Assembly: GCA_016458225.1 (NCBI GenBank) | Contig: JAEMGR010000001.1 | Location: 372,001-436,000 of the forward strand | Length of the DNA stretch: 64,000 bases | Origin: Myxococcaceae bacterium JPH2 | GTDB taxonomy: Bacteria; Myxococcota; Myxococcia; Myxococcales; Myxococcaceae | Direction: 5' to 3' | Shown: one piece after another, positions 8,708 to 17,904 of the stretch | How the letters are laid out: every line of letters starts with the position of its first letter | Numbering within the stretch: the first letter of the stretch is position 1 | Notes under the pieces: model-generated | Database searches by the model: none | What the model saw: the letters and a program-made list of their open reading frames with translations, nothing else | Told to the model about the DNA's origin: nothing | Made by a program: the position numbers and the translations under genes

Positions 8708-9892
8708 CTACCGGCTGGACATCAGGCGCGTCCACAGCGTGAGCAGGTTGCGGACCACGGGGCCTTCGGGAATCTCGGCCACGGGGGGCACGTCCACCTG
8801 CACACCTTGCTCCGCCAGCCGTGTGAAGGGGTTCGCCGGGTCCTGCGTCTTCAACGGCACCGAGGGGTCCGCCGGACGGAAACCAAACGCCAGCGCCCGC
8901 TCCTGCACCGGACGGCTGTGCAGATATCGCAGCCACTCGGCCGCCGCGGTCTTCTGCTTCGGCGTCACCCAGCTCGCCTGCAACACCGCCGCGGGGTGGT
9001 CGCTCCACAGCGTCAACGACGGGTAATACACCTTGAGGTTTCCCCATCGGCCCTGCGCGTTGGCGATCTGCGAAATCGCCAGGTTCTCGTACACCACCGC
9101 CACGTCGTACTTGGACGGCCCGAAGCGGACCATGTCGGTCATGAACGTGCCCGTGGATGGCTCGAAGCGCGTCACGCCCTTCTCCAACTGCTTCACCCAG
9201 TCCTGGAACTTGGGGTCCAAGAGGTCCCCCACCGTCAGGCCCGTGCGCTTGCCGTAGAACTCCATCGTCGCCAGCAACAACGCCTGCAACCCCGAGTTGG
9301 AGCGCGTGGGGTCCGTGTGGCCCAGCTTCACGAAACCCCAGTCCGCCTTGCCGCCAATCGCGGGCCAGCCCTGGTCGCTCGCCACCGCCTTGTGCAGCGT
9401 CTTCCACGACACGCCCTGCCCCGCGTTCGCCTTCTGGAGCACCTGCGCGCGGTCCTCCCATACGACGAAGACGAGCGGCGTAATCACCAGCGGCTGCGGC
9501 GCCGCGTCTCCATCCGTGGCGAACAGCGGACCTCGCGAGGGGTCCGTGGCCCAGTCCGAGGAGAGCATCCGCAACACCGCGCTGTCCGCCGGGCTCCACA
9601 CCGTGGGCTTCTCTCGCCCATCCAGGATGGCCTGCGCCGCGTCCAGCGAGCCCCGCCCCACCAAGGTCACCTTGATGTCCGGGTGCTCCTGCTGGAAGCC
9701 CGCCGCCGCGGCCTCTACCCAGTCCTTCTTCTCCGTGCTGTAGAGGAAGGAGATCTCCGTCACGTCCCGAGACGGCGTCGCCGCGCTCGCGGTGCTGGCG
9801 CCCGGCACCTCGTCCCCCCGCTTGGAGGTCAGGTAGAAGACGCCGCCCACTGCGGCGAGGAATCCGATGATGATGAGGACCTTGGGCTTCAT
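8708..9892 (-). CDS. Membrane-anchored extracellular solute-binding protein (paralogue of 10760-12460)
   Basis: A 394-residue protein with an uncleaved-looking N-terminal transmembrane segment (residues 4-22), an Ala/Ser-rich linker, then a type-2 periplasmic-binding fold (about 45-350). It shares collinear motifs with the vWA lipoprotein two genes upstream: KLGHT, then SNSGL, then YENL, then FGFRPADP near the C-terminus. The start overlaps the upstream stop by four bases (ATGA), implying translational coupling. No permease or ATPase accompanies it. A sensing or capture role in the periplasm is an inference. Confidence 0.85.
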   Translation of the reverse strand: MKPKVLIIIGFLAAVGGVFYLTSKRGDEVPGASTASAATPSRDVTEISFLYSTEKKDWVEAAAAGFQQEHPDIKVTLVGRGSLDAAQAILDGREKPTVWSPADSAVLRMLSSDWATDPSRGPLFATDGDAAPQPLVITPLVFVVWEDRAQVLQKANAGQGVSWKTLHKAVASDQGWPAIGGKADWGFVKLGHTDPTRSNSGLQALLLATMEFYGKRTGLTVGDLLDPKFQDWVKQLEKGVTRFEPSTGTFMTDMVRFGPSKYDVAVVYENLAISQIANAQGRWGNLKVYYPSLTLWSDHPAAVLQASWVTPKQKTAAAEWLRYLHSRPVQERALAFGFRPADPSVPLKTQDPANPFTRLAEQGVQVDVPPVAEIPEGPVVRNLLTLWTRLMSSR

Positions 9893-10698
9893 GACGCGAC
9901 TCCCACCGCTTGGAACGACTGGAGGGACTCCTCGAAGGCACCAAGCTCGCCGTTCATCCGGCCCAGTTCCTCGTTGAGGTCCCCGTACATGCTTTCGGTT
10001 GCCTGCGCATCCAACGCGCGCAGGCGCATCACTTGGGCGGGCAGCCCCTGCATCGTCGCCGCGATGCGCGTCAGGTTGGCCAGCACTCGCTCATACGCCG
10101 CGCCAATGTCCCGCAGCGCCTTAAGCTGCGCCTCGTGCGCCGCCCGGGCGCTCTCATACTGAGCCCGCGCCTCGGCGTCCCCCGCCTGCGTCGCCTGCTG
10201 GGAGGTGACGCGAACGGCCTCTCGCACCGCCTGGGCATCCGTCGCGCGCAGGAAGGCGGACAGCTCGTCGCCGCGCGAAGCCAGCCGCCACGCCCGCTCC
10301 TCCAGCTCCTTCAGCGACGTCAGCGCCAGCCCCAGGTGGGCACGCACGCCCTCGGGCGCATCTTCCAGCGCGTTCTCCAACGAGCGCCGCGCGCCGAGCA
10401 TGCCGAGCATCGCCTCGCGCACCCGGGGGTCCACGAAGGCCCGCGCGTCCAGCGGACCGCCCGCCCGCGCGCCCTTCGGGCTGGACAGCACCCCGCGCCA
10501 GAAGTCGGGCGAGGCCAGGTCCCACGCCACCATGGCCGCGTAGGCCGCGCCGCCCAGCGCGAGCACCGGCCACGAGTGCAGCGCCGCCGCACCCAGGGCT
10601 CCAGCCCCCGCCACCCCCAGGTTCAGGGGAGCCGCCGCCGCGCGCCCCAGCACGCGGGGCAGGTGCTGCAGCAAGGTGCTCACGCCGCGCTCGGCCAT
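9889..10698 (-). CDS. Membrane coiled-coil protein between two solute-binding paralogues
   Basis: A 269-residue protein of unknown family. An Ala/Gly-rich hydrophobic stretch (about residues 22-56) could form one or two membrane helices. It is followed by a long, heptad-rich helical region (about 90-265) with many Glu, Arg and Ala residues. The ATG at 10698 (MAERGV) fits better than an upstream ATG that would overlap the preceding gene. It sits 61 bp after the vWA lipoprotein and overlaps the next gene by four bases. A structural or signalling role between its two partners is inference only. Confidence 0.75.
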   Translation of the reverse strand: MAERGVSTLLQHLPRVLGRAAAAPLNLGVAGAGALGAAALHSWPVLALGGAAYAAMVAWDLASPDFWRGVLSSPKGARAGGPLDARAFVDPRVREAMLGMLGARRSLENALEDAPEGVRAHLGLALTSLKELEERAWRLASRGDELSAFLRATDAQAVREAVRVTSQQATQAGDAEARAQYESARAAHEAQLKALRDIGAAYERVLANLTRIAATMQGLPAQVMRLRALDAQATESMYGDLNEELGRMNGELGAFEESLQSFQAVGVAS

Positions 10699-10759
10699 CG
10701 AGGCGCCTCCCAGAGGTCGGCCGTGGAAGAGTCGGCGGTGGAAGAAGAACGAGGCATGG

Positions 10760-12460
10760 TCAGAAGAACGAGGCAACGTCCCGGTATACCTGGACGATGT
10801 CCTCCACGTTGCCGCGAGAGAACGAGCCCTTGCCCGACTCGGCGATCTGCTCCAGGACCTGCCCCTCCGCGTCGTTGCCGTAGGCGATGGTGAAGACGCG
10901 CACCGCGGACTCCCGCTCGCCGTCTCCCGTGAGCCCCGCCTTGAGCTGCGCGAGCGATAGCACGCTGCTCTCGTCCCGACCGTCCGTCATCACCACCACC
11001 GCGTGGATGCGACCGGGCGCGACCTTCGCTCGCGCCTGGGAGGCCCGGTATGCGGCCAGCGTGGCCTCGTACAGCGCCGTGCCACCATCCGCGAGCGCCA
11101 GGTCGATGCGGCTGCCCAGCTCCGCGCGCCCCGCGGCATCGAGCACACGCGGCCCCACCACGGGATAGACGTTGTTGTCGAAGAAGAGCAGGGCCACCTC
11201 GTCCCGGTCGGAGAGCGTCTCGAGGAAGCGGCGAGCGCCGACCTTCGCCTCGGCCAGCGGGCGCCCCTTCATGCTGCCGGACTTGTCGAACACGAAGACG
11301 ATGTCGGTGGCCTTCTTCGTCTGGCGCCATGTGGCGAGCAGCGACTCCAGCACATTCGCCTCGGGGACCTCCAGGAGCGTCTGAGGCTGGCGGGGATCCG
11401 CGCCGTGCGCGGCGTCCACCGGCGAGGTGATGGCGATGGCGGGGTCCGCCGGACGGAAGCCGAGCGCGAGCGCCCGCTCCTGCGCGGGGCGGGCCTTGAG
11501 GAACGCGAGGAACGCCCCGGCCGCTGCCCGCTCCTCCGGTCCCACCCACTCCGCGTCCAGCACCGCGTAGGGGTGGTCCGACCAGAAGGTGCCCTCCACC
11601 GGGTAGAGCGCGACGAGCGGGAACGGCGCATCGGAGGCCTTGCCCTGGGACTCGATGACCAGGTTCTCGTACAGCACGGCGGCGGACATGTAGCCCGGGC
11701 CACGCTGGAGCATCTTGTCCGCGAAGAAGCCGGTGGACTTGCCGTAGTGCACCACCGTGGACTCGATGCGCTGGAGCATCGCCCGCGTCGCGTCCGAGCC
11801 CACGTCCTGCGCCGTCAGCCCGCGCGTCTTGCCGGCGCCCGCGTAGGCCTCGGCGAGCACGGCCAACAGCCCTGAGTTGGAGAACTCGGGATGGGTGTGC
11901 CCCAGCTTGAAGCTTCCCCACTCGGGGTGCCCGGAGTCGGCCCAGCCGCGCGGGCTGGCCGCCACCTTGAGCAGGTCCGCCCAGCCGAGCTGCCGGCCGG
12001 GCCAGCCCAGCGCCTCCGCCATGGGCTTCCACATCGCGATGACGATGGGGGACAGGAGCACCGGCTCGCCCTGCCCCACCAGCGGCTGGGTGCGGCCCGA
12101 CGTGGCCATCCACGCGCTGTTGAGCAGCGGCAGGTACGCCGTCGAGGCCGGGCTGAACACGTGGGCCTTGAGCCGCCCGGACGCAATCTCCTGCACCGCC
12201 TCACCCGAGCCCAGGGCCTTGCCCACCACGCGGATGGGCCGGCCGCTCGCCGTCACGGCGCCGCTGCTGGCCTCGAAGGCCCGGGCCTGCTCCTCCAGCC
12301 ACGTCTTCTTCTCGCTGCCGTAGGCCACGGTCAGCACCAGCGCGCGGTCTGGCATGGCCGAGGCGCGCGCGGTGGCCTCGCCCTGGGTCCCCTCGCCCGT
12401 CCCGCACTTGCAGGCGCTCAGCAGCACCAGCGCCAGCATCCCGATGTGGACCTTCCGCAT
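10760..12460 (-). CDS. Lipoprotein with solute-binding domain fused to von Willebrand A domain
   Basis: A 566-residue lipoprotein with lipobox LLSAC (C17). Residues about 38-355 form an extracellular solute-binding domain carrying GSFKLGHT, SNSGLL, YENLVI and LGFRPADP. Residues about 385-560 form a vWA domain whose metal site is D392-K-S-G-S396, with TDGRDES later. The vWA half is likely a Mg-dependent protein-interaction module on the cell surface or in the periplasm. It is the first gene of a three-gene operon. Substrate-binding plus vWA fusions are known as an uncharacterised architecture in actinobacteria and myxobacteria. The start at 12460 is chosen because it opens the lipoprotein signal. 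Confidence 0.87.
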   Translation of the reverse strand: MRKVHIGMLALVLLSACKCGTGEGTQGEATARASAMPDRALVLTVAYGSEKKTWLEEQARAFEASSGAVTASGRPIRVVGKALGSGEAVQEIASGRLKAHVFSPASTAYLPLLNSAWMATSGRTQPLVGQGEPVLLSPIVIAMWKPMAEALGWPGRQLGWADLLKVAASPRGWADSGHPEWGSFKLGHTHPEFSNSGLLAVLAEAYAGAGKTRGLTAQDVGSDATRAMLQRIESTVVHYGKSTGFFADKMLQRGPGYMSAAVLYENLVIESQGKASDAPFPLVALYPVEGTFWSDHPYAVLDAEWVGPEERAAAGAFLAFLKARPAQERALALGFRPADPAIAITSPVDAAHGADPRQPQTLLEVPEANVLESLLATWRQTKKATDIVFVFDKSGSMKGRPLAEAKVGARRFLETLSDRDEVALLFFDNNVYPVVGPRVLDAAGRAELGSRIDLALADGGTALYEATLAAYRASQARAKVAPGRIHAVVVMTDGRDESSVLSLAQLKAGLTGDGERESAVRVFTIAYGNDAEGQVLEQIAESGKGSFSRGNVEDIVQVYRDVASFF

Positions 12461-12687
12461 CGACGTTTCTCCCCCTTCGGTGAGTCGCTGCCCACTGTGA
12501 AAGGCCCCGCCGTCGCGCCACAAGCCGGCCCCCCGGCTCCGCTGCCGTTCTCACCCCCTCGTCACACGGGCGTCACCTGTCCGTGGCAGTCGTGCCCGCT
12601 TGCTCATACGGGGTGTGGGTGAATTTCGACCTCCACGCAGGCTCCTCGTCGTTGGTTTGCCTTCCAACCGGCTGGCACAGTGGCTCG

Positions 12688-13548
12688 ATGAAGGTGATTT
12701 GGCGGCGGATGGCCCTCCTGGGCCTGGGCGCGGCGCTGGGTGCCTGCGCGACGACCCCCGCGCCCCCTGTCCAGCGGTACTCCCTGGGCATGGCGCGCGT
12801 GGACTACCGGGACTACGCGGCGGCGAAGTCCAATCTCTGCAAGGCCGAACCGCGGTGGCTGTCGGACGAGCTGTCCGCGGTGAACGGGATGCTGGCGCGC
12901 TTCCTCCAGGAGACCGCGGACGCCACGCACCCGGACGCGGTGGAGCATCCCCAGCACCTGGCGCTCCTGCAGGAGGCCGCGCGCACCCTGCCCTCGGTGC
13001 TCACGGTGCACCAGCGCAACCTCATGAAGCTGCAGGAGTGCCGCTTCCGGCGCGCTGGAGCCTTCCCGGACATCGCCCAGCGTGGCGCGGCCCTGGTGAA
13101 GGAGTCCCAGGAGCGGCTGGCCCAGGCCCCCCAAGCCGCGGCGGCGGCGGCCCTGAGCGAGGCCCGACAGAAGTGGCGGGACGAGTCCCCGGACCGCGAG
13201 GCCACGGCCCGGCGCACCTGGTGCTCGAAGAAGCCGCAGATGGGCGAGCCGGACCTCTACTTCGCGCACCTGGCCGCCAACGAGCGCATCGAGTGGCTCT
13301 TCTGCGACGGGCACCGCGTGGAGCAGGGCGAGGACGGCGCGCTGCAGTTGGTGAGCCCCGATGGACTCAGCCGCCAGGAGCGCAAGCGCATCCAGGCCCA
13401 GCGCTACCTGGAGGCCGCGCGCGACTATCCGTCCGAGGAGATCGACCGGCCGCCGCGCACCGTGCCCGCCGAGGCGCCAAAGACCGAGGCGCCCACTCCG
13501 GAGGCTCCCGCCGCCCAGGAGCCCGCCCCGCCGTTCGAGTCGCCCTGA
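12688..13548 (+). CDS. Lipoprotein of unknown function
   Basis: A 286-residue putative lipoprotein (signal about residues 1-20, lipobox LGAC). The middle is helical, with an Ala-rich stretch and scattered cysteines. The C-terminus (about 250-286) is a Pro/Glu/Ala tail typical of a disordered wall-spanning linker. I recognise no family. It is divergent from the solute-binding/vWA operon across a 227-bp gap and convergent with the next lipoprotein, only 1 bp apart. The ATG at 12688 is chosen because upstream in-frame starts do not yield a signal peptide at the N-terminus. Confidence 0.7.
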   Translation: MKVIWRRMALLGLGAALGACATTPAPPVQRYSLGMARVDYRDYAAAKSNLCKAEPRWLSDELSAVNGMLARFLQETADATHPDAVEHPQHLALLQEAARTLPSVLTVHQRNLMKLQECRFRRAGAFPDIAQRGAALVKESQERLAQAPQAAAAAALSEARQKWRDESPDREATARRTWCSKKPQMGEPDLYFAHLAANERIEWLFCDGHRVEQGEDGALQLVSPDGLSRQERKRIQAQRYLEAARDYPSEEIDRPPRTVPAEAPKTEAPTPEAPAAQEPAPPFESP

Positions 13549-13549
13549 C

Positions 13550-14266
13550 TCAAGGCGTGTAGGTGACGATGACGTGGTTGCCCGTCACCATCAGCCGTCG
13601 GGGCGTCGCCGAGGTGCCCTGGATGGCCAGGTCGAACACGAGCGGTAGGCGCAGCGCGCGCTGGTTCATCTCGTCCGTGAGCTGCCGCTCGTAGCCCGCG
13701 CCTTCCTTGGAGTTGAAGCGGGCCTGCACCGCCTGCGCGCGCGCCTGCACGGTGGACCCCTCCAGCGTGAGCTGCACCTCCAGGTCGGCCACCGCGCCCG
13801 CGGCCACCGCGCGCTCGAAGTCGCGCACCTGCCCCTTGGCGAAGGACGGCACCTTGCCGGTGTAGCGCACGTTGTCGCCGCGCAGGTGGGCGCGACAGGC
13901 GAGCCGGTTGCGTGACAGCGGGCGGAAGTCGGTCAGGCGCTCGACGACGATGTCGCCGGTGAGCTTGCTGTGGAAGTCCCGACCCGGCATCCGGTACGGC
14001 ACCATCCGCGAGGCCGCCTGCTCCAGCGTGGCGGGCGCGTAGTACAGCGAGAAGGTGCTGCCCGCCTTCGCCGGGGACTGAAGCTCCTCGGTGTACTCCG
14101 CCGAGGCGCGCACGGCCTCATCGGCCGCCTTCGCGGCTTGAGTAAGCCGCGCGTTCTCCTGCTCAAGAGCCATCATGCGCGCGCGCGGATCCGACGCGCA
14201 GCCCAAGCCCACCAGCCCCATCCACGCGGCCAGTCCCATCGCGCTCCAGCGACTCGCGGCCCTCAT
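13550..14266 (-). CDS. Lipoprotein with coiled coil and beta-rich domain
   Basis: A 238-residue lipoprotein (lipobox GLGC near residue 23). A short coiled coil follows (LEQENARLTQAAKAADEAV), then a mixed, largely beta domain ending NHVIVTYTP. No family is recognised. Its ATG overlaps the stop of the gene upstream by four bases, so the two lipoproteins are translationally coupled and probably act together in the envelope. Confidence 0.72.
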   Translation of the reverse strand: MRAASRWSAMGLAAWMGLVGLGCASDPRARMMALEQENARLTQAAKAADEAVRASAEYTEELQSPAKAGSTFSLYYAPATLEQAASRMVPYRMPGRDFHSKLTGDIVVERLTDFRPLSRNRLACRAHLRGDNVRYTGKVPSFAKGQVRDFERAVAAGAVADLEVQLTLEGSTVQARAQAVQARFNSKEGAGYERQLTDEMNQRALRLPLVFDLAIQGTSATPRRLMVTGNHVIVTYTP

Positions 14267-14688
14267 GGCGATGCCACCTGGCACGTGCCCTGGGACACCT
14301 TCCACGTCCCCACCGTGCGCGCGGGCGTGAAGGAAGTCGTCACGCGATAGCTCTGGCGCTGGAGCGCGAGCTTCGCGTGCACCGCGCCAGAGCGAGGCAG
14401 TCCGCGCGCGGGCGAGGCCGCGGGCGTCGCACCCGCACAGCCCAGCGTGCCGAGCTGCGCGGCATCCTCCGCGCGAGTCACCGCCGCGAAGGACTGCTCG
14501 ACCTCCGCCTCCTTGCGGCGCAGCTCCTCACGCAGCTGTTGGTTGCGTTCCTCGAGCGCGTCCGCGCGCTTCTCCATGCTCGCGTCGGACGCCATGTTCG
14601 GGTTGCGCCCAGCGCTCCGGGATGCGCAGCCCACCGTCGCCAGCAGCACGCACAGCGCCGCCAGCCCCCCTCGTGACGAGATGTTCAT
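14263..14688 (-). CDS. Small coiled-coil lipoprotein
   Basis: A 141-residue lipoprotein (lipobox TVGC, about residue 20). A heptad segment (EKRADALEERNQQLREEL) precedes a small C-terminal domain with two cysteines. Both it and its coupled partner downstream have the layout lipobox, coiled coil, small beta domain, which suggests distant paralogy or a heteromer. The start at 14688 opens the signal peptide; a longer frame to 14721 would run into the WGR gene's end. Confidence 0.68.
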   Translation of the reverse strand: MNISSRGGLAALCVLLATVGCASRSAGRNPNMASDASMEKRADALEERNQQLREELRRKEAEVEQSFAAVTRAEDAAQLGTLGCAGATPAASPARGLPRSGAVHAKLALQRQSYRVTTSFTPARTVGTWKVSQGTCQVASP

Positions 14689-14717
14689 GCCCGCCCAGGC
14701 TAGCACTGGGCCCGGGC

Positions 14718-15572
14718 TCACGCCTCCAGGCGCGTCCGACGCTTGGCGACGTGCGCGTCACCCTGGGTATCCAGCGCCCCCAGCCACGTGGCGAACGAGC
14801 CACCCGCGTCCGTCAGGTGCGCTTCCACGTGCGGGCGCAGCTCGGTCCAGCGCTTGCCCCAGCGATCCTCCGAGTTGCCCCGCAGCTCCGGCCGCTCCAC
14901 CAGCAGCGTGCCCACGCGCAGCGCCAGCTCGGGCTCTGAGAGGGCGTCCGCCTGCTTCACCACCACGCTGGCACCCGGCACCGGCGTGGCCGCGCGACGC
15001 CAGACATCGAGCGTGCGCACGAAGGCCGCCACATCCACCGCCGACAGCAGCGCCAGCGCATGGCGCACCGGCAGCCGCGCCCGGCCCGTGGCCACCACGC
15101 GCTCCATCAGCGAAGCGAACGGGCCCGACAGCTCGGCGTGCGCGGCGGGGTCCACGCCGCCCAGGGCACGCAGCGTCCTGCGCGCACGCAGGGCCTCACG
15201 CGTCACCCGCCAGCTTCGCCGGCCCAGGCTCTTGTCCAACCCGATGAGCGCGGCGGCGGCGGCGGCCACCTGCTCCGGACGCGCGGTGAGCGCGGGCACG
15301 CGGCGAGGCAACGCAGGCCGAGGCGGCGGCCCCGCGGGCGCGGGCGGCGCGGCGGGCGCACCGTCCCCGGACACCTCGCGGTAGCCCTCGCGCAGCTTCT
15401 CCGCGACCTTCTTCTCGTACTCCCGCCGGGCGCTGGCCTCGTCGGGGAACGCCTTCTCCTTGCGCTGGCCCGCCGTGCCGATGCGACCGAACGTGACCGT
15501 GAAGACGTTGCCCGCCTGCTCCGGCTCCCAGAACTTGGAGCTGCTGCCCTCGACGAACTCGAACCTGCGCAT
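14718..15572 (-). CDS. WGR-domain protein
   Basis: A 284-residue protein beginning with a WGR domain (about residues 1-72). FEFVEGSSSKFWE, then VTFGRIGTAGQRKEKAF, then AxxEYEKKVAEKLREGY is the standard WGR pattern. WGR modules bind nucleic acids in PARPs and in many uncharacterised bacterial proteins. The following Pro/Ala linker leads to a helical domain (about 100-280) of unknown type. It is separated by 29 bp from the lipoprotein pair downstream, so a loose operon is possible. Confidence 0.85.
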   Translation of the reverse strand: MRRFEFVEGSSSKFWEPEQAGNVFTVTFGRIGTAGQRKEKAFPDEASARREYEKKVAEKLREGYREVSGDGAPAAPPAPAGPPPRPALPRRVPALTARPEQVAAAAAALIGLDKSLGRRSWRVTREALRARRTLRALGGVDPAAHAELSGPFASLMERVVATGRARLPVRHALALLSAVDVAAFVRTLDVWRRAATPVPGASVVVKQADALSEPELALRVGTLLVERPELRGNSEDRWGKRWTELRPHVEAHLTDAGGSFATWLGALDTQGDAHVAKRRTRLEA

Positions 15573-15633
15573 GCCGCGCTTCCTCCCGCGAACCTCGTGA
15601 ACTCCAGGCTACCGCACGACGGGCCCTTCTGGC

Positions 15634-16629
15634 TCAGGCGGCCTTCGGGGCCTGCTCGCGGACCTCCGCCGTCAGGCCCCGCAGGCCCGCCTCGCGCGTC
15701 ATCCGCCCCTCGTAGCCCAGCTCCATCCGGGCCTTGGCGTCGCTCACCGTCACCTCGCGCCCCACCAGCAGGTACTCCGTGCGGCTGAGCGGCGGCGGAC
15801 GCGACAGCCCGAGGAAGCTCCACGTCACGTCCCCCAGCAGCGCCACCGTGGCCGCCAGCGCCCCCGGGAACGAGCCCGTCCCCGGCTCCACGCCCTGCGT
15901 CTTCAGGAGCGCGGTGATGAACTCGCGGAACTCGACCGGCTCGCCGTCCGTGAGGAAGTAGGACTGCCCCCCGCGCCCCTTCTCCGCCGCCAGGAGCAAG
16001 CCCTCCACGCAGTTCTCCACGTGGCAGGTGGAGGTGAGGTAGCGCCCGCCGTCGATCCACTTGAAGCGCCCCGTGCGCACCGCCTCCACGAAGCCCGGCA
16101 GCACGGTCGTGTCCCCAGGCCCCCAGATGAAGCGGGGGCGCGCCACCACCGTGGTCAGCTCCGCGGAGTTGACGCTGAGCACCAGCCGCTCCGCCTCCGC
16201 CTTGGTGGAGGCGTAGTTCCCGATGGGGCGCTCCGGGATGGGTCGCGTCTCGTCCACGCGCACGAGCGGCTCGCCATCCAGCAGCACGGCCTCCGTGCCC
16301 ACGTGGACCAGCCGCTTCACGCCCGCCATGCGCGCGGCCTCCAGCACGCGCTCGGTGCCGCGCACGTTGGCCTCGAAGAAGTCCGCGCGAGGACCCCACG
16401 TCTTCACGTAGGCCGCCGAGTGGAAGACCGTGTCACAGCCTTCCATGCCCTGGCGCAGGCGGTCCGCGTCGGACAGGTCGCCCTCGAAGGGCTCCGCGCC
16501 CGCCGCGCGCACGGCCTCGACCGCCGCCGGAGAGCGGGCCAGCGCACGCGCGGGCGTCCCCTTCCGCTGAAGCTCCGCGATGAGGTGCTTGCCCACGAAG
16601 CCTGAACCGCCGGTGATGAACGCGCGCAC
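15634..16629 (-). CDS. NAD-dependent epimerase/dehydratase (3-beta-HSD-like SDR)
   Basis: A 331-residue extended short-chain dehydrogenase. The Rossmann glycine motif TGGSGFVG is at residues 6-13, an NxxxT-type segment is NVRGTERVL, and the catalytic Y-x3-K is in NYASTKAEAERL. The downstream substrate half (CHVENCVEGLLLA) resembles 3-beta-hydroxysteroid dehydrogenase or sterol/hopanoid-type SDRs rather than sugar epimerases. It probably acts in the cytoplasm or at the membrane on a hydrophobic substrate (inference). Confidence 0.9.
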   Translation of the reverse strand: MRAFITGGSGFVGKHLIAELQRKGTPARALARSPAAVEAVRAAGAEPFEGDLSDADRLRQGMEGCDTVFHSAAYVKTWGPRADFFEANVRGTERVLEAARMAGVKRLVHVGTEAVLLDGEPLVRVDETRPIPERPIGNYASTKAEAERLVLSVNSAELTTVVARPRFIWGPGDTTVLPGFVEAVRTGRFKWIDGGRYLTSTCHVENCVEGLLLAAEKGRGGQSYFLTDGEPVEFREFITALLKTQGVEPGTGSFPGALAATVALLGDVTWSFLGLSRPPPLSRTEYLLVGREVTVSDAKARMELGYEGRMTREAGLRGLTAEVREQAPKAA

Positions 16630-16716
16630 GTCCTGGTCCTTCCTGCCGTGAAGCCCCCAGCGATGGAACGACTCCGAGCGGCGCGCCGGTCTCCGCCGCT
16701 CAGTCTCTCCCGTGAA

Positions 16717-17904
16717 TCAGAACATGTCGCAGAGCGACGGCGCGACGCTCGCGAAGAGCGCCGAGGCCGTCCGCACCGAGCCGTCATCCGCCTGCACCAG
16801 CCCCACCTGACGCAGGGCCTCGGCTGACTGAAAGCCGGTGTACAGCGAAGCGAGGTCGCGCACGTGCAGCCGCATGCGCCCCTCCCCTCCGGCGCGCACG
16901 CGCGCACTCCCTCCGGAGACCTCCAGCACGAAGCGCCCGCGATTCTCCGCGAACACGTCGTCCTCCACCTCCAGGTGCAGCGCGCCCGAGACCTCCTCGG
17001 GCCAGCCGCGCGCCTCCATCGCCCCTCGGACGTCCACCAGCCGCAGCATCCAGTGCATGTGCAGCTTCACCTGATAGGTCTGCTCGCGCAGCAGCATCAG
17101 GAGCGGATCATTCGACCCGCCGAACCAGGCGATTTCGTGCACCAGCGAGCGGTGGTCGCCCAGGAAGCGCAGCAACCGCCGAGCCGCCTCGGGCGTGCTC
17201 GCCACCAGGTCCGTCAGGAAGATTTCCTGTCGGAGCAGCGGAGGAGGCGGCGCGCGACGCACCAGATAGACATAGCCCTCCACACCCGAGGCGCCCTCCA
17301 CCACGTAGCCGTACGCCACCTCACCGCGCGGCTGCCGCACCCGGCTCCACGCGTTCACGCCTCGATCCAGCCAGCCCTGTCGGTGCCGGGCCACGCGGCG
17401 ATAGCACTCGACGATGGCGGCCTCGTCCGAGGGCCGTACGGGGCGCACGCTCAGGCTCCGCTCGCCCAGCTCCAGGTCGCCAGCGCGCACGCGAACCTCG
17501 AAGCGAGAGCCGGCCAGCTCGTATCCCACGCGCCGGTACAGCGGCTGCGTCGCGGGGTACAGGACGGACAGGGGCACCCCCTCCGCGCGCACCTCGCGCA
17601 GCAGCGCCTGCATCATCCGCGTGGCCACGCCCGAACCTCGGTGCGCGGGGGACACGCCCACCGAGCCCACGCCCACCATGGGAACCGAACGCCCGCCCAG
17701 CCACTGCCCCATGCGCAGATACGACAGCGTGGACGCCACGCTGCCACCCTCGCGGAGCACGCGATAGCCCGCGGCGCCGACGCGCTGCACCAGCGCCAGC
17801 GAGTCCGCCGGAGACATCGCGAACGCCTGCGCCACGATGTCCGCCACCGCGGCCTGCTCCTGCTCATCCCGAGGTGGACTGAAATCCGCCTGCGTCTGCT
17901 CCAC
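16717..17904 (-). CDS. Eis-like GNAT N-acetyltransferase
   Basis: A 395-residue protein of the Eis group: two GNAT domains followed by a sterol-carrier-like domain. The acetyl-CoA loop is VGSVGVSPAHRGSGVATRMM. YPATQPLYRRVGYE carries the tyrosine that serves as general acid in Eis. The chain ends in phenylalanine (CDMF), as Eis does, where the C-terminal carboxylate is the base. I chose GTG at 17904 because an AGGAGG box lies 6 nt upstream; an ATG at 17949 would add 15 residues. Eis enzymes acetylate lysine or aminoglycoside amines; the substrate here is unknown. Confidence 0.88.
   Translation of the reverse strand: MEQTQADFSPPRDEQEQAAVADIVAQAFAMSPADSLALVQRVGAAGYRVLREGGSVASTLSYLRMGQWLGGRSVPMVGVGSVGVSPAHRGSGVATRMMQALLREVRAEGVPLSVLYPATQPLYRRVGYELAGSRFEVRVRAGDLELGERSLSVRPVRPSDEAAIVECYRRVARHRQGWLDRGVNAWSRVRQPRGEVAYGYVVEGASGVEGYVYLVRRAPPPPLLRQEIFLTDLVASTPEAARRLLRFLGDHRSLVHEIAWFGGSNDPLLMLLREQTYQVKLHMHWMLRLVDVRGAMEARGWPEEVSGALHLEVEDDVFAENRGRFVLEVSGGSARVRAGGEGRMRLHVRDLASLYTGFQSAEALRQVGLVQADDGSVRTASALFASVAPSLCDMF

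Follow-up and report, generated by a model that had tools for sequence, protein, structure and literature searches.

The 64,000-nucleotide stretch of DNA analysed here (the window; Myxococcaceae bacterium JPH2, contig JAEMGR010000001.1, positions 372,001 to 436,000) contains a three-gene operon that may encode a transport-independent envelope sensor, in which two solute-binding proteins (SBPs) and a vWA domain used for docking would be combined with a cytoplasmic output that can be exchanged, a reading to which a probability of about one half is given. The operon encodes a lipoprotein in which a solute-binding domain (SBP1) is fused to a vWA domain (SBP-vWA), a middle membrane protein (MID) and a second, membrane-anchored SBP (SBP2). 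The trio probably senses something extracellular rather than importing it. Somewhat more tentatively, it would represent an undescribed, ancient, phylum-spanning transmembrane module in which a paralogous SBP receptor pair, one member bearing a vWA domain with a metal ion-dependent adhesion site (MIDAS), is connected to interchangeable cytoplasmic outputs: a hairpin-bundle protein, a Ser/Thr kinase, or a hairpin protein together with PspA and an AAA+ ATPase. The features of the operon, in window coordinates, are the following:

10760..12460, minus strand: gene of the 566-aa SBP-vWA lipoprotein, which opens the operon (start codon ATG at 12460, stop codon at 10760; from the open reading frame, ORF, and Pfam)
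12410..12460, minus strand: lipoprotein signal peptide with lipobox LLSAC and Cys17 (read off the translation)
11318..12340, minus strand: SBP1, type II solute-binding domain, residues 41-381 of SBP-vWA (Pfam and fold matches)
10763..11311, minus strand: vWA domain, residues 384-566 of SBP-vWA, with a complete MIDAS (D392-x-S394-x-S396, T461, D493)
9889..10698, minus strand: MID, 269 aa, a hairpin of two transmembrane (TM) helices followed by a helical bundle predicted to be cytoplasmic (ORF, model, and conservation beside SBP-vWA)
8708..9892, minus strand: SBP2, membrane-anchored solute-binding paralogue, 394 aa (ORF and Pfam SBP_bac_11)

The genes follow one another in the order SBP-vWA, MID, SBP2, with a 61-bp gap after the first gene and an ATGA overlap between MID and SBP2, as had been proposed in an earlier reading of these letters made without database searches (the sequence-only reading). 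SBP-vWA matched the Pfam families SBP_bac_11 (E 2e-19) and VWA (E 3e-16), and SBP2, which has a TM segment at its N-terminus and no lipobox, matched SBP_bac_11 (E 6e-21). Both solute-binding domains share 36% identity over 397 columns (E 2e-63), so that the lipobox, the Pfam matches and this identity bear out the lipoprotein fusion and the membrane-anchored paralogue that had been predicted. Among the strings said to be common to SBP1 and SBP2, KLGHT, SNSGL and YENL were found in both, whereas FGFRPADP is shared only as GFRPADP, the preceding residue being L in one domain and F in the other. MID had been described as a membrane coiled-coil protein and, indeed, it consists of two hydrophobic helices followed by a helical coiled-coil region; it matched no family in Pfam or NCBIfam. 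Genes were called with a codon-usage model for myxobacteria and as conserved ORFs for other groups. No sigma-70-like promoter was found upstream of the operon, a negative result that is uninformative in a myxobacterium.

The operon is real, and its arrangement is not due to chance, since several phyla have conserved it. A search of 84,980 species genomes with an SBP1 alignment returned at least 556 relatives, the best 80 of which were kept with their flanking DNA. According to their record titles, these 80 come from Myxococcota, Chloroflexota, Acidobacteriota, Verrucomicrobiota, Gammaproteobacteria and others, and plasmid relatives of SBP-vWA extend the range to Actinomycetota, Cyanobacteriota and Deinococcota. 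Full context was available for 48 of the best 80 loci: a second SBP lies beside SBP-vWA in 44 of them, 32 also carry a MID-type protein, and MID without SBP2 was found in none. Gene order varies by phylum and membership is kept, the order being SBP-vWA, MID, SBP2 in Myxococcota, SBP2, SBP-vWA, MID in Chloroflexota, and SBP-vWA, SBP2, (PspA), M2, (AAA+) in Acidobacteriota and Verrucomicrobiota, where M2 is a MID-type protein. Profile-profile comparison linked the Chloroflexota MID to the myxobacterial one (probability 99.8%, E 2e-27), the acidobacterial and verrucomicrobial M2 family to the Chloroflexota MID (probability 96%, E 5e-9), and the protein that follows SBP-vWA in the actinobacterium Miltoncostaea likewise to the Chloroflexota MID (probability 97.5%). 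In a sample of 151 evenly drawn Chloroflexota genomes, SBP-vWA was present in 26; strong MID matches were found in 15 of these 26 and in none of the 125 negatives, and all 15 adjoin SBP-vWA or SBP2, a co-occurrence with a hypergeometric chance of about 4e-14 among genomes that, being related, are not independent. Thus, the profile searches and co-occurrence check suggested in the sequence-only reading show the middle gene to be conserved with its neighbours.

SBPs are usually read as parts of importers. No ABC (ATP-binding cassette) permease or ATPase gene was seen in the flanks of the operon, where genes were called over about 5 to 18 kb of the window, in agreement with the earlier observation. 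As for the 145 proteins flanking the trio in the 48 loci, PF00005 (ABC_tran) and PF00528 (BPD_transp_1) were not among the 25 most matched families, with counts listed down to 2. ABC-type genes lie in or next to the operon in only two of the 48 loci, phn-like in L172 and a pst-like operon after MID in L176; the homologues are therefore not found mostly beside permease and ATPase genes. This rarity makes the importer reading poor and supports the earlier suggestion that the unit would serve sensing or surface assembly instead. It appears highly improbable that the two proteins are orphan binding proteins feeding a solute to an ABC importer encoded elsewhere: both have the type II fold found in sulfate-, iron- and sugar-phosphate-binding proteins, and pst operons are located close to the trio of L176 and that of Thiodictyon, but ABC genes are rare in neighbourhoods from many phyla, and the vWA domain, MID and the kinase fusion described below have no place in an importer. 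Phosphate was considered as a ligand from the four PBP_like_2 proteins among the 145, these same pst operons and the phn-like genes at L172, and it is kept as a weak lead only, because most PstS-like neighbours are on the other strand or far away.

The strongest evidence for SBP2 as a putative sensor, with MID and a kinase as alternative outputs, comes from kinase fusions. In eight loci from Ktedonobacteria (L182, L185, L190, L192, L196, L197, L200 and L201), the gene before SBP-vWA encodes a longer, kinase-type protein with SBP2 as its outer domain, and no MID match was found at any of the eight. These proteins were recognized by reading their sequences, except for L201, which was assigned by position; Pfam confirmed L182 and L196, in which a zinc ribbon, Pkinase and SBP_bac_11 were matched. 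A Ser/Thr kinase fused to an SBP2-like domain (Pkinase and SBP_bac_11) was also observed in the myxobacterium G112 (L119:7881-9989), away from any SBP-vWA gene.

Because SBP2 is the outer domain of Ser/Thr kinases next to SBP-vWA, sensing is favoured over surface assembly. On the latter explanation, the vWA-SBP protein would serve an extracytoplasmic structure, either as its adhesin or as its co-chaperone, and the SBP domains would have been recruited to bind proteins or glycans and not to sense. vWA domains with an intact MIDAS usually bind protein ligands, and the invariant C-terminal Phe and the lipoprotein signal of SBP-vWA fit protein docking. Nevertheless, no structural or secretion genes recur among the 145 flanking proteins of the 48 loci, and the kinase fusions point to signalling, which leaves an assembly complex a quite unlikely explanation.

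The fold of the SBP domain is consistent with a receptor of this kind. In the AlphaFold model of SBP-vWA (mean pLDDT, predicted local distance difference test, 92.3), the closest solved folds of the SBP domain are sulfate-, thiamine- and sugar-phosphate-binding proteins (Z 25-27), which places it in the type II SBP fold, and 6lkg, a structure deposited under the name of a two-component signal transduction protein, is also among the nearest folds. The vWA domain belongs to the vWA family, since it resembles the vWA domains of a Catenulispora protein and of inter-alpha-inhibitor (Z 24-25) and the MIDAS residues D392, S394, S396, T461 and D493 are invariant in 58 homologues. In the same homologues the last residue of SBP-vWA, Phe566 (window 10763-10765), is invariant as well; the branch associated with TelA ends in YQ.

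A tree of 162 SBP domains separated SBP1 from SBP2 almost fully, with an exclusive SBP2 clade of 69 members (support 0.997), and both clades span phyla. The apparent exceptions were two truncated or split SBP-vWA genes (L149, L209), the remnant of Myxococcus sp. RHSTA-1-4 described below (L135) and divergent proteins of the TelA branch. The simplest reading of this topology is that the SBP1/SBP2 duplication would be older than the spread over phyla and that both copies have been retained, which argues for different, paired jobs.

Taken as an envelope sensor, the trio would work as follows. SBP-vWA, a lipoprotein on the periplasmic face, would bind a small solute in its clam-shell SBP domain, and its vWA domain would dock to a partner, most simply SBP2, through the metal ion bound at the MIDAS. 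The ligand-driven closing of one or both SBPs could then be relayed via the SBP2 membrane anchor to an output in the cytoplasm, which would be MID in the window and, in Ktedonobacteria, where MID is missing, the Ser/Thr kinase fused to SBP2. The topology of the proteins in this scheme is taken from sequence and model only.

The nature of MID bears on a further explanation, namely that the trio is a membrane-integrity module in which MID would be a PspA- or BAR-like sub-membrane scaffold and the SBP/SBP-vWA pair would report envelope damage or anchor the scaffold from outside. PspA is indeed the commonest Pfam family, and the commonest named neighbour, among the flanking proteins (5 of 145). 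It occurs with the trio in L160, L166, L169, L184 and L199 (Pfam on L160), and at three of these loci (L166, L169 and L184) an AAA+ ATPase comes directly afterwards; in three Chloroflexota-type loci (L174, L186, L188), an SPFH/band-7 gene precedes SBP2. In addition, the structural matches of the MID model (pLDDT 88.7; helices 24-40 and 43-62, then 91-266) include many BAR domains with Z 9-10. Nevertheless, Z below 13 is background for helical bundles, Foldseek returned no match to MID at E < 0.001, no sequence link connects MID or M2 with PspA, and the window operon lacks PspA. A membrane-integrity module is thus judged rather unlikely. Other identities for MID and the operon were also rejected: MID as a BAR-domain protein, its Z of 9-10 equalling the helical-bundle background; MID as XpaC (PF10112), with no match to MID and none of any kind in 40 related genomes; and homology of MID to PspA, TelA or the small two-TM protein of the TelA branch, which received no support in profile-profile comparison. 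As to a known defence system, PADLOC gave no match for the SBPs, and a marginal cyclase match to MID (E 0.0064), located in the coiled-coil region, was disregarded.

Within Myxococcota, full-length SBP-vWA was found in 11 of 146 genomes and MID orthologues with more than 40% identity in nine, eight of them beside SBP-vWA; SBP2 was present in about 46. In the ten SBP2-only loci that were read, SBP2 is solitary, in the same chromosomal place and with the same neighbours. An intermediate state is seen in Myxococcus sp. RHSTA-1-4 (G121, L115): SBP1 stops at residue 385, neither the vWA domain nor MID is left, and SBP2 lies directly next. Since both SBPs were kept, vWA domain and MID have the look of a single functional unit; the trio has thus undergone reduction in some members of the family, with loss of these two parts as a unit in RHSTA-1-4, and this paired loss provides a ready genetic hypothesis. 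The ninth MID orthologue is a lone gene (L114:9518-10264, G130), 42% identical, located after an ilvD-like gene, with neither SBP-vWA nor SBP2.

Several observations weigh against the sensor reading. About 37 of the 46 SBP2-positive Myxococcota have SBP2 without SBP-vWA or MID, so SBP2 would have a role outside the complex, and three myxobacteria of group g10 (G112, G141, G145) hold SBP-vWA alone, at another locus and without MID. The window operon contains none of the recognised signalling enzymes, neither a kinase nor a response regulator nor any other. Finally, the 80 loci are those that matched the query best, which is not random sampling, and related genomes do not count as independent cases.

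Sensing of a solute by an extracytoplasmic SBP without transport has precedents in the SBP-dependent receptor kinases HptA-HptS, ChvE-VirA and TorT-TorS. The Ktedonobacteria versions, in which SBP2 is fused to a kinase, resemble them, as does the fold match to 6lkg, and a kinase-SBP2 fusion also exists in one myxobacterium. The window operon itself has no kinase gene, and it differs from these systems by having a second SBP, a vWA domain and a hairpin protein. A likeness to phage shock protein (PSP) systems with PspA, AAA+ and band-7 proteins (PMC11237479) is seen in the PspA and AAA+ genes of some acidobacterial and verrucomicrobial versions; in contrast, the window operon has no PspA_IM30 gene. 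The terms VWA and SBP are absent from the main text of that paper, where the trio is apparently not described. A literature search found no description of the SBP-vWA/MID/SBP2 trio in open-licence papers; a mention in a 2012 paper on the Ter system is possible. Annotation pipelines already give the SBP-vWA fusion a generic name: NCBI applies "substrate-binding and VWA domain-containing protein" to proteins of Streptomyces (WP_332880827.1) and Variovorax (WP_162570944.1) with the same domain order, and plasmid relatives are about 22-43% identical to SBP-vWA over most of its length; in the papers searched, neither the fusion nor the trio as a system was found described. In distant phyla, a pair of SBPs is repeatedly encoded next to a vWA domain and a membrane hairpin protein, and transporters are scarce in the neighbourhood. 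Should the pair form a receptor, many proteins that currently bear the name of transport binding proteins would be mis-read, and the kinase fusions would offer a direct way to ligand and output.

TelA/Ter-type operons are a further point of comparison. In betaproteobacterial plasmid relatives, a single operon comprises the genes for an SBP2-like protein, for TelA, for SBP-vWA and for a small two-TM protein, with TelA accompanying the SBP-vWA relatives of Variovorax and Sphaerotilus. The SBP2-like protein of this branch is a profile match to SBP2 (probability 98.5%), whereas no relationship to MID was detected for its small two-TM protein. TelA was ruled out as a missing partner in the window genome, in which no PF05816 match was found while controls were positive.

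Some relatives show further arrangements. On a Variovorax plasmid (L126:695-2437 and 12448-17293), the TelA/SBP-vWA operon has a flotillin gene on one side and Wadjet JetA-type defence genes on the other, and on a Pseudanabaena plasmid (L129:4620-8311) two SBP-vWA genes stand in tandem near a gene of the prohibitin family. In two g10 genomes (L120:9298-14273 and L122:3755-11328), SBP2-like proteins are encoded beside a membrane-anchored SPFH-like protein and a peptide-exporter-like ABC protein, together with one to four copies of a small two-helix membrane family (c14).

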